From assembly GCA_009780695.1 (NCBI GenBank), contig WQZN01000013.1:1-64000 (forward strand): 64,000 bases of DNA, in the 5' to 3' direction. The position numbers and the translations under genes were made by a program. Source of the DNA: Microbacteriaceae bacterium (GTDB lineage Bacteria; Actinomycetota; Actinomycetes; Actinomycetales; Microbacteriaceae). Positions 16,565-46,180 of this stretch are shown in pieces. Position 1 is the first letter of the stretch. Every line of letters starts with the position of its first letter. The notes under the pieces were generated by a model. The model saw only the letters and a list, made by a program, of their open reading frames with translations. It was not told the DNA's origin and did no database searches.

Positions 16565-16621
16565 CCGGTCGTCACTTGTGCACACTGCGGAGGTCGTGGA
16601 CCGTGTGCATCTGACGACCGG
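16565..16621. repeat. Intergenic palindrome family A, copy A1
   Basis: CCGGTCGTCACTTGTGCACAC...GTGTGCATCTGACGACCGG; ends inverted. Confidence 0.85.
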
Positions 16622-16638: not shown

Positions 16639-16693
16639 CGGTCGTCACTTGTGCACAGTGCGGGCGCCGTGGACCGTGCGCGAGTGACGACCG
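16639..16693. repeat. Intergenic palindrome family A, copy A2
   Basis: CGGTCGTCACTTGTGCACAGTGC...GTGCGCGAGTGACGACCG; 74 nt from A1 start. Confidence 0.85.
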
Positions 16694-43797: not shown

Positions 43798-44220
43798 GTG
43801 TCGAAGTTCATGCTGATCATGCGGGCGACGCCCGAGGCGGTCGCGGCGTTCGCCGAGGCCGACTTCACCGAGGTGATCGCCGCGATGGGGGCCTACAACG
43901 AGTCGATGCTCAAGGCCGGCGTGATGGTCGGCGGCGACGGGCTCGCGCCCGAGCCGGGCCTCGTCGTGTCCTTCGACGAGACCCCGCCGGTGGTCACCGA
44001 CGGCCCCTACGGCGAGACGAAGGAGCTGTTCAACGGCTTCTGGGTGCTCGAGGTGCCCACCATCGAGGAGGCCGCCGAGTGGGCGCGCCGCGCGCCGCTC
44101 ACCCCCGGCAACAAGATCGAGGTGCGGCGCATCACCGGCCCCGATGACTTCCCCGCCGACAACGAGTGGATCCAGAAGGAAGAGGAGTGGCGGGCGAACG
44201 GGTACTCCCCGACGGAGTGA
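43798..44220 (+). CDS. YCII-related / DGPF domain protein 2
   Basis: VSKFMLIMRATPEAVAAFAEADF...TDGPYGETKELFNGFWVLEV. Confidence 0.93.
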   Translation: MSKFMLIMRATPEAVAAFAEADFTEVIAAMGAYNESMLKAGVMVGGDGLAPEPGLVVSFDETPPVVTDGPYGETKELFNGFWVLEVPTIEEAAEWARRAPLTPGNKIEVRRITGPDDFPADNEWIQKEEEWRANGYSPTE

Positions 44221-45467
44221 CCGCCCGCCGTGCCGTCGAGGCCGTCTGGCGCATCGAGTCGGCGCGCATCGTCGCGACCCTGACCCGTTTCACGGGCGAC
44301 TTCGCGCTCGCCGAGGACATCGCCCAGGAGGCGCTCGCCGAGGCGCTCGCATCCTGGCCCCGGGCCGGTGTGCCCGCCAACCCGGGGGCGTGGCTCGTCG
44401 CGGTCGGCAAGCGGCGCGCGATCGACGGGTGGCGGCGCGACGCGGCGCGCGACGTGCGCTATGCGGCGCTCGCGCGCGAGCTGGGCGAGGCGGATGCCGC
44501 GGCCGCGGCATCCTCGACGCCGCCCTGGGACCCCGACGCGATCGACGACGACGTGCTGCGCCTCGTGTTCATCGCCTGTCACCCCGTGCTGTCGCGCGAG
44601 GCGTCGATCGCGCTGACGCTGCGCACGGTCGCGGGCCTGTCGACCGAGGCGATCGCGCGGGCGTTCCTCGTGCCGGTCGCGACCGTGCAGCAGCGCATCG
44701 TGCGCGCGAAGAAGACGCTCTCGGCCGCGGCGGTGCCGTTCGAGGTGCCGCCGCGTGACGAGTACCCGGCGCGGCTGTCGGCCGTGCTGTCGGTCGTCTA
44801 CCTGATCTTCAACGAGGGCTACGCGGCCGCGTCGGGGGCGGAATGGATGCGTGCCGACCTCGCGCGCGAGGCGCTGCGTCTCGGCCGCGTGCTCGCCGAG
44901 CTCGTGCCGCGCGAGCCCGAGGCGCACGGGCTGGTCGCCCTCATGGAGTTCCTCGTCGCGCGCTTCCCCGCGCGGCTCTCGGCGGCAGGCGAGCCCGTGC
45001 TGCTCGCCGATCAGGACCGCTCGCGCTGGGACCGCATGCTGATCGCGCGCGGGCGCGCGGCGCTCGCCCGGGCGGATTCCCTGGGCCGGGGCCGCGGCGC
45101 GTACGGCCTGCAGGCCGCCATCGCCGAGTGCCACGACGTCGCACCGTCGGTCGGCGAGACCGACTGGGGGCGCATCGTGGTGCTCTACGAGGCGCTCGGC
45201 CGCATCGCGCCGTCGCCCGTCGTCGAGCTCAACCGGGCCGTCGCGGTGTCGCAGGCCGAGGGGCTGGCTACGGCGCTGCGGATCGTGGACTCGCTCGCGG
45301 CATCCGGCTCGCTCGCCGGCTACGGGCTGCTGCCGAGCGTGCGCGGCGAGCTGCTGACCCGGCTGGGGCGCACCGATGAGGCGCGGGCGGAGTTCGAGAA
45401 GGCGATCGCCCTGACGTCGAACGAGCGGGAGCACGCGGTGCTCGTCGCGAAGGTCCGCGCGCTCTGA
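44187..45467 (+). CDS. ECF42-like RNA polymerase sigma factor with C-terminal extension
   Basis: VEAVWRIESARIVATLTRFTGDFALAEDIAQEALAEALASWPRAGVPANPGAWLVAVGKRRAIDGWRR; downstream of two DGPF genes; start could be 44217. Confidence 0.9.
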   Translation: MAGERVLPDGVTARRAVEAVWRIESARIVATLTRFTGDFALAEDIAQEALAEALASWPRAGVPANPGAWLVAVGKRRAIDGWRRDAARDVRYAALARELGEADAAAAASSTPPWDPDAIDDDVLRLVFIACHPVLSREASIALTLRTVAGLSTEAIARAFLVPVATVQQRIVRAKKTLSAAAVPFEVPPRDEYPARLSAVLSVVYLIFNEGYAAASGAEWMRADLAREALRLGRVLAELVPREPEAHGLVALMEFLVARFPARLSAAGEPVLLADQDRSRWDRMLIARGRAALARADSLGRGRGAYGLQAAIAECHDVAPSVGETDWGRIVVLYEALGRIAPSPVVELNRAVAVSQAEGLATALRIVDSLAASGSLAGYGLLPSVRGELLTRLGRTDEARAEFEKAIALTSNEREHAVLVAKVRAL

Positions 45468-45509
45468 ACCGCTGCCGGCGGGAGGCCCGGTCGCCGGTCG
45501 CCGCCATCC

Positions 45510-45547
45510 GCCGTCGTTCGCCACCCGTCTGCCGTCGTTCGCCACCC
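45510..45547. repeat. 17-nt direct repeat, two copies 21 nt apart, abutting A3
   Basis: GCCGTCGTTCGCCACCC at 45510 and 45531. Confidence 0.85.
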
Positions 45548-45600
45548 GGTCGTCACTTGTGCACAGTTGCCGCGGTGCGCACTGTGCTCAGGTGACGACC
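45548..45600. repeat. Intergenic palindrome family A, copy A3
   Basis: GGTCGTCACTTGTGCACAGT...GCACTGTGCTCAGGTGACGACC. Confidence 0.85.
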
Positions 45601-45619
45601 CAGTCGGGCCTGGCCCTGT

Positions 45620-45676
45620 CCGGTCGTCAGTCGCGCACAGTGCGGGCGGCCCGGACTGTGCCGGAGTGACGACCGG
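45620..45676. repeat. Intergenic palindrome family A, copy A4
   Basis: CCGGTCGTCAGTCGCGCACAGTGCGGGC...GGACTGTGCCGGAGTGACGACCGG; 72 nt from A3 start. Confidence 0.85.
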
Positions 45677-45685
45677 GCTGGGAAG

Positions 45686-46180
45686 ATGGGCGGCATGACC
45701 GAGGCCGACGCGCGTGACGAGTGGCAGCAGCGCGTCGACGCGTTCTGGGCAGCGTTCGATGCGACCGACAGCGCCGGGCAGCTCGCGAAGATGCGTGAGC
45801 TCGTGGCCGAGCGGGGTGAGGCGGATGCCCACGCCCTCGCCGAATGGGGCGGGGTGCACGACGCGCTCGGCCTCGAAGCCGACGCCGTCGAGCCGTATCG
45901 TGCCGCGCTCGCCGCCGGCCTCGACCTCGAGACGGCGCATCAGGTGACGATCCAGCTCGCGAGCACGCTGCGCAATCTGGGCCGCACCGATGAGGCGCTG
46001 GCGCTGCTCGACGGGCTCGACGCCCCGGAGCTCGGGGACGCCCCGGCGTTCTTCCGTGCGCTCGTCCTGCACTCGGCGGGCCGCGACGCCGAGGCGCTGC
46101 AGACGGCGCTCACGGCGCTCGCCGAGCACCTGCCGCGCTATCGGCGTGCGGCGCGCGGCTACGCCGACGGTCTCGCCTGA
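45686..46180 (+). CDS. Tetratricopeptide repeat protein
   Basis: AALAAGLDLETAHQVTIQLASTLRNLGRTDEALALLDGLDAPELGD...LHSAGRDAEALQTALTALAEHLPRYRRAARGYADGLA; start probably 45695. Confidence 0.88.
   Translation: MGGMTEADARDEWQQRVDAFWAAFDATDSAGQLAKMRELVAERGEADAHALAEWGGVHDALGLEADAVEPYRAALAAGLDLETAHQVTIQLASTLRNLGRTDEALALLDGLDAPELGDAPAFFRALVLHSAGRDAEALQTALTALAEHLPRYRRAARGYADGLA

Follow-up and report, generated by a model that had tools for sequence, protein, structure and literature searches.

Paired palindromes between an ECF sigma factor gene and a TPR gene are probably dispersed cognate sites of an AbiEi/Vsr-like endonuclease

Dispersed CGTC repeats without a dedicated transposase were recorded in a 2013 survey of bacterial REP elements, in the text of which the word Actinobacteria does not occur (PMC3733652). 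The EDxHD endonuclease I-Bth0305I acts as a dimer, and its target of nearly 60 bp is exceptionally long (PMC3943268); the site of the AbiEi-type antitoxin Rv2827c consists of inverted 23-bp repeats in two tandem pairs, with a 13-bp gap in each pair and 36 bp from centre to centre (PMC7319586). A survey of HEPN proteins names a Vsr-REase domain after a protein of Microbacterium testaceum (PMC3710099).

The palindromes described here, A3 and A4, form a doublet in the window, the 64,000-nucleotide stretch of a Microbacteriaceae genome that was analysed. The genome (G000) is a draft of 2.95 Mb in 41 contigs and is 86% complete. The doublet separates two genes on the same strand, one for an ECF-type sigma factor and one for a TPR_5 protein (Table 1). 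In the sister species G003, represented by one main contig, the 3' end of the orthologous sigma factor gene likewise adjoins a doublet. Alignment with the G003 orthologue suggests that the TPR_5 start codon is probably the ATG at 45695, which lies 20 nt beyond the end of A4; the first ATG of the frame (45686) lies 11 nt beyond it. These distances agree with a sequence-only reading of the window, which had placed A4 after the sigma factor gene and about 10-20 nt ahead of the TPR start and had suggested a possible influence on TPR translation.

The same reading had described arms common to A3/A4 and to a second doublet, A1/A2, which lies inside a convergent gap, and GGTCGTCA and GCACAGT are indeed present in both; likeness between the two doublets is mainly confined to these arms. 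The regular doublet geometry that it had reported also stands, but its exact figures do not: the start-to-start distance is 74 nt for A3/A4 and 73 nt for A1/A2, where 72 and 74 had been given. The centres of the four 16-bp half-sites of A3/A4 fall at 45555.5, 45592.5, 45629.5 and 45666.5, in steps of 37, 37 and 37 bp. Directly 5' of A3, at 45504-45545, a 21-bp unit CCRTCYGCCGTCGTTCGCCAC occurs as a tandem duplicate that is 90% identical. Rfam gave no match across the window.

Table 1. Positions of the palindromes and of the genes next to A3/A4
Feature	Record	Position	Strand	Size	Details
Palindrome A1	window	16567..16619			same family as A3/A4; inside convergent gap
Palindrome A2	window	16640..16692			same family as A3/A4; 20-bp gap from A1
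ECF-type sigma factor (left neighbour)	window	44217..45467	+	416 aa	Sigma70_r2, Sigma70_r4_2, DUF6596
Palindrome A3	window	45548..45600		53 bp	type A; half-site GGTCGTCACTTGTGCACAGT, on the other strand GGTCGTCACCTGAGCACAGT; 13-bp centre
Gap A3-A4	window	45601..45621		21 bp	
Palindrome A4	window	45622..45674		53 bp	type A; half-sites GGTCGTCAGTCGCGCACAGT, GGTCGTCACTCCGGCACAGT; 13-bp centre
TPR_5 protein (right neighbour)	window	45686..46180	+		
Type A doublet in GH95 gene	L023	11260-11312, 11323-11375			10-bp gap
Type A single in GH95 gene	L023	12604-12656			
AGTGTGAGTTCGGGCTG palindrome	L022	14268			
AGTGTGAGTTCGGGCTG palindrome	L025	13687			
AGTGTGAGTTCGGGCTG palindrome	L037	3555			
AGTGTGAGTTCGGGCTG palindrome	L153	1113, 2221			

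The arms recur throughout G000. The pattern GGTCGTCA-N20..50-TGACGACC matched this genome 24 times and its reversed control 0 times, and every match measured 52 or 53 bp although gaps of 20 to 50 were permitted. This is far beyond chance and bears out the earlier view that the palindromes belong to a dispersed element family. Mismatch-tolerant and sequence-only profile models resolved the G000 copies into two types: type A, with about 36 elements of 53 bp and the half-site GGTCGTCACTYGYGCACAGT, and type B, with about 21 elements of 52 bp and the half-site GGTCGTCACAAAGTCG. G003 holds about 40 type B elements, with type A essentially absent, and diverged versions were found in two further members of the genus (ATTCGTCACAAAGTGC-like in G002, AACCGTCAGTTCYGCACRGT-like in G001). 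Across 400 genomes from the bacterial family, G000 and G003 alone contain two or more copies of the exact pattern. Doublets make up 17 of the 24 sites in G003 and 19 of 37 in G000, so that the doublet geometry, too, is a real and conserved unit, as had been proposed.

The doublet was not found in viral contigs, and a wider scan of genome contigs for the pattern returned two matches, neither of which we count in the family. The one in L054 has no local repeats around it, while the one in L055:951-1176 (Stenotrophomonas chelatiphaga) falls in a cluster of 20-21-nt GGTCGTCACCCACCA repeats in inverted arrangement that looks unrelated; the string GGTCGTCAC is common to the L055 repeats and the palindrome family, again probably without relation. 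Elsewhere in G000, L039:6087-6285 (C18) holds a triple array, in which one B-like palindrome is followed by two of type A at the usual spacing. Dispersed single palindromes with the half-site GAGTCGTCRCTAACTCCCC, which has the TCGTC core in common with those described here, occur in G128, a genome of another genus (L088, L091, L093, L095).

Each element consists of two inverted half-sites of ~20 bp, flanking a centre of fixed length and random sequence. The two arms of an element are identical at 16.25 of 20 positions, and arms taken from other elements match at 16.25 as well (p = 0.52); counted-pair controls, run on types A and B separately, showed no arm-arm covariation either. Pooled arm tests that mixed the two types were set aside in favour of these per-type tests. 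Selection for a hairpin predicts a better match between arms of the same element, and since this is not seen, the simplest reading is a double-stranded site of two independent half-sites that would be bound by a protein dimer. The independent variation of the arms thus fits better with protein-bound double-stranded DNA than with a hairpin, and hairpin formation is probably a by-product.

The distances between the centres of the 16-bp half-sites are equal within elements and between them. Steps of 36-36-36 bp were found in 12 doublets, 37-37-37 in 6 and 37-36-37 in 5; the remaining doublets comprise four other near-equal combinations, seen once each, and one doublet with a middle step of 26. 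Equal steps within and between elements make the doublet a lattice of four half-sites that alternate in orientation, with about 3.5 helical turns from one to the next. Such spacing might suggest a CRISPR- or TIGR-like guide array, a candidate that we set aside: the elements are dispersed, mostly number only two units and alternate in orientation. Nor do we rely on tandem duplication as the origin of the doublet, as similarity within doublets is weak (gap versus upstream flank p about 0.03, centres 0.025, both pooled).

Placement is strongly biased. Among sites that fall outside predicted genes, convergent gaps hold 19 of 31 in G000 and 13 of 20 in G003, against a background of 39/329 and 27/184 convergent junctions, respectively (12-15%; p = 2e-9 and 3e-6). 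Genes were called with a codon model, so these orientation counts carry some error, and several calls of a site as inside a gene are probably false frames. G000 and G003 have six site-bearing junctions in common, and at five of these the flanking genes match on both sides; the expectation is about 0.3 (p about 4e-7 to 4e-6, assuming 3,400 junctions). The A3/A4 junction is one of the six, and it carries type A in G000 and type B in G003. The types differ at no fewer than four of the six, and centres and gaps are without clear homology; sites at common junctions either have stayed in place and had their arm sequence rewritten, or have been occupied anew. G002 and G000 have two loci in common, at which G002 carries its own arm sequence; at the A3/A4 junction, neither the TPR gene nor the doublet is present in G002.

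A candidate partner gene lies on contig 3 of G000, where two type A doublets 1,054 bp apart (about 149.2-150.2 kb) enclose a single gene, with TP-like and ADA-like genes (by inspection) as its neighbours. Its product has 307 aa, counted from the first ATG. The protein alone gave no significant Pfam match, but among its relatives 20 of 22 match MTES_1575 and 14 of 22 match DUF559 across the C-terminal domain. Towards AbiEi, the Pfam model AbiEi_4 gave a weak match in one of 22 relatives (0.011), and PADLOC AbiEi models matched up to six of 22 (best 1.3e-9). Profile matches in the PDB were 3r3p and 3hrl (E 0.001-0.005); the best, 3r3p, is listed as a mobile intron protein and is the Vsr-fold homing endonuclease I-Bth0305I. 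By sequence, the family carries a Vsr-type catalytic domain, and the motif residues of the nuclease fold are invariant among relatives; the motif of the contig 3 protein reads DYDG where EYEG is usual (D replaces E). Judging by these matches, the contig 3 protein is probably an endonuclease with a Vsr/DUF559-like C-terminus and an AbiEi-antitoxin-like N-terminus, the latter a predicted winged helix.

Going by the flanking A doublets, this protein would be the recogniser of type A, and it is probably the partner of these palindromes. An orthologue at the same junction in G002 is 54% identical (neighbouring genes 82-87%) and is flanked by palindromes of the G002 type, and G128 and G031 carry a 40% relative at this junction. 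In G003 and G001 the junction is empty, with the neighbouring genes 64 bp and about 25 bp apart, respectively. For type B, the main type in G003, no cognate flanking endonuclease gene was found there, and type B may be an orphan population in that species.

Signs of insertion come from two places. A GH95 fucosidase gene of G000 (L023:10646-13000, C23; assignment confirmed by Pfam) holds three type A elements in frame, and the stretches that contain them have a missing or shorter counterpart in the solved homologue 7kmq, which fits insertion of type A elements into this gene. The second sign is the contig 3 junction, which occurs both filled and empty. Direct signs of movement, namely a target-site duplication or a recent insertion polymorphism, were not found.

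The association of such genes with palindromes of their own extends well beyond G000. Relatives of the G002 protein numbered 1-7 in 11 of the 12 genomes tested, and 44 related genes, from 11 genomes, were examined for the highest-scoring palindrome up to 260 bp from either gene end. Scores of 16/18 or higher were reached in 33% of the 88 flanks and in none of 132 control windows taken at these loci. A strong flanking palindrome is not universal: 30 of the 44 loci have at least one flank scoring 15 or more. The upstream and downstream arms of one gene match at 14/20 positions or better in 13 of 44 loci, compared with 0.26% of cross-locus pairs. Arm similarity follows protein relatedness to a small yet significant extent (Mantel r = 0.16, p = 0.003), and the two closest protein pairs have arms matching at 17/20 and 15/20. 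A search of a plasmid collection gave only three matches, all in Arthrobacter (31-35% identity). In this independent test, each of the three genes had palindromes of its own to either side; those of one gene occur at 10 places over both replicons of the strain, and those of another at four places on its plasmid. Gene-specific flanking palindromes of ~50 bp are thus seen in two bacterial families, including across Microbacteriaceae. G000 itself holds a second dispersed family, AGTGTGAGTTCGGGCTG, which belongs to an endonuclease gene on contig 26 and recurs at three other places within 436 kb of this genome (Table 1). Non-covarying arms, the link to an endonuclease family and different arms at junctions common to sister species are what the sequence-only reading did not foresee.

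Several individual loci add detail. Ahead of the upstream palindrome of the endonuclease gene in Arthrobacter sp. ERGS1:01 (L170:1337-1451), two extra direct half-sites GAGGGCCCAGATAATCCGCC are present. One endonuclease gene in G007 (L152) has nearly identical palindromes upstream and downstream, centre included, which suggests a recent copy event. Relatives of two of the endonucleases were not found in viral contigs.

We consider it rather likely that A3/A4 belong to the dispersed copies of a DNA site cognate to the contig 3 endonuclease, and that the gene and its palindromes have spread by cutting and repair. Binding, cutting and mobility, as well as recognition of type A by the contig 3 protein, are features that we infer. 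One monomer would occupy each ~20-bp half-site, and a dimer would span one 53-bp palindrome with its nuclease domains above the unconserved centre; a doublet would hold four monomers at regular intervals of 36-37 bp. A site would be cut and then repaired from a copy bearing the gene or another site, and in this way gene and palindromes would spread. Palindromes would survive mostly in convergent 3' gaps, where they may be least harmful.

Other explanations account for part of these observations. The palindromes could be operators at which the AbiEi-like protein shuts down both the gene that encodes it and a regulon marked by the dispersed copies, with no mobility involved. AbiEi antitoxins autoregulate through inverted repeats in their own promoters (PMC7319586), and many of the endonuclease genes have upstream palindromes; yet palindromes also lie downstream of these genes, three sit within the GH95 coding frame, and divergent promoter gaps rarely hold dispersed copies (3/31 in G000, 0/20 in G003), which makes this reading unlikely. 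We regard it as a shade more unlikely still that they are bidirectional transcription terminators or other RNA hairpins between convergent genes. The strong enrichment in convergent gaps and the very stable folding of every palindrome (z -4.9 to -6.5) would suit such a role. Against it, the arms do not covary and their sequence is itself conserved, beyond what pairing needs, while centres and gaps keep fixed lengths despite random sequence; it also gives no reason to expect gene-specific palindromes to either side of the members of one gene family. Two hallmarks of intrinsic terminators are lacking: compensatory arm changes are not seen, and a T-tract is missing. The earlier suspicion that a simple terminator fits A3/A4 poorly is thereby upheld, and the coding start only 11-20 nt away speaks for it as well.

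A role in chromosome architecture, as BIME-like sites for gyrase or a nucleoid protein and with the endonuclease association as a side effect, would explain the convergent placement, where positive supercoils meet, the regular lattice of a doublet of about 126 bp and the positions common to different species. It leaves unexplained that palindrome sequences are specific to individual endonuclease genes and change between sister species, and we hold it to be very improbable. Slightly less credible still, and the least probable of these readings, is mobilisation by a tyrosine or DDE transposase, as for classical REP, REPIN or MITE elements. The palindromes are short, extragenic and often in doublets, as in REPINs (PMC3116915), but a search for the Y1 class, in which controls were positive, detected no RAYT-type HUH tyrosine transposase (Y1_Tnp, PF01797) in G000, G001, G002, G003 or G128. 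An unpaired GTAG or CGTC tag is absent, and arms of 16-20 bp with centres of 13-20 bp stand against the stems of 8-9 bp and loops of 4-5 nt of the CGTC families (PMC3733652).

Beyond the reading that we favour for A3/A4, we put forward more tentatively, as a possibility, that AbiEi/Vsr-like endonucleases of Micrococcales form an unrecognised class of bacterial selfish elements, which would spread themselves and their own 50-60-bp palindromes via break and repair. Each gene would evolve its own site, doublets would serve as landing pads, and sites at common junctions would be rewritten as specificity changes. If so, REP-like dispersed palindromes would have arisen alongside a Vsr-type nuclease, an unrelated enzyme, and many paralogous enzymes would each have their own long recognition site beside the gene. 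Dozens of natural enzyme-site pairs could then be read from genomes, as a test bed for the evolution of protein-DNA specificity and as a supply of nucleases whose sites are very long and can be predicted. Unannotated intergenic palindromes across a large actinobacterial order would also be accounted for.

A search of the open-access literature found no report of MTES_1575, DUF559 or AbiEi-like nuclease genes with flanking cognate palindromes. With the MTES_1575 and DUF559 nucleases, the proteins described here share a family match across the C-terminal domain; an association with palindromes is not mentioned in the accessible part of the HEPN survey (PMC3710099). The AbiEi-type antitoxins, AbiEi and Rv2827c, resemble them in their sites, which are operators of inverted 23-bp repeats, and the 36 bp of Rv2827c compares with the 36-37-bp lattice found here. 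The antitoxin sites, however, are promoters of toxin-antitoxin operons, whereas here the sites lie on both sides of the gene and genome-wide, and the protein carries a nuclease domain.

I-Bth0305I is alike in its Vsr fold and long target, and 3r3p is the nearest solved structure by profile for the present family. It differs in being part of a mobile group I intron, whereas the genes here stand alone, with intact palindromes on their flanks that occur dispersed as well. The likeness to REP/RAYT systems (REPtrons) lies in short, dispersed, extragenic palindromes, often in doublets, mainly 3' of genes and family-specific (PMC3116915, PMC3733652), copies of which flank one cognate gene, though of another kind. 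The enzyme there is a HUH tyrosine transposase, and here a Vsr-like nuclease with an AbiEi-like N-terminus. CGTC, a tag in REP elements as defined in PMC3733652, here lies paired inside both arms of a symmetric element, and the palindromes measure 52-53 bp and are apparently double-stranded sites. Taken together, paired palindromes that match those flanking the gene of a putative DNA-binding, DNA-cutting protein point to a selfish-DNA system that is REP-like but built on an unrelated enzyme.
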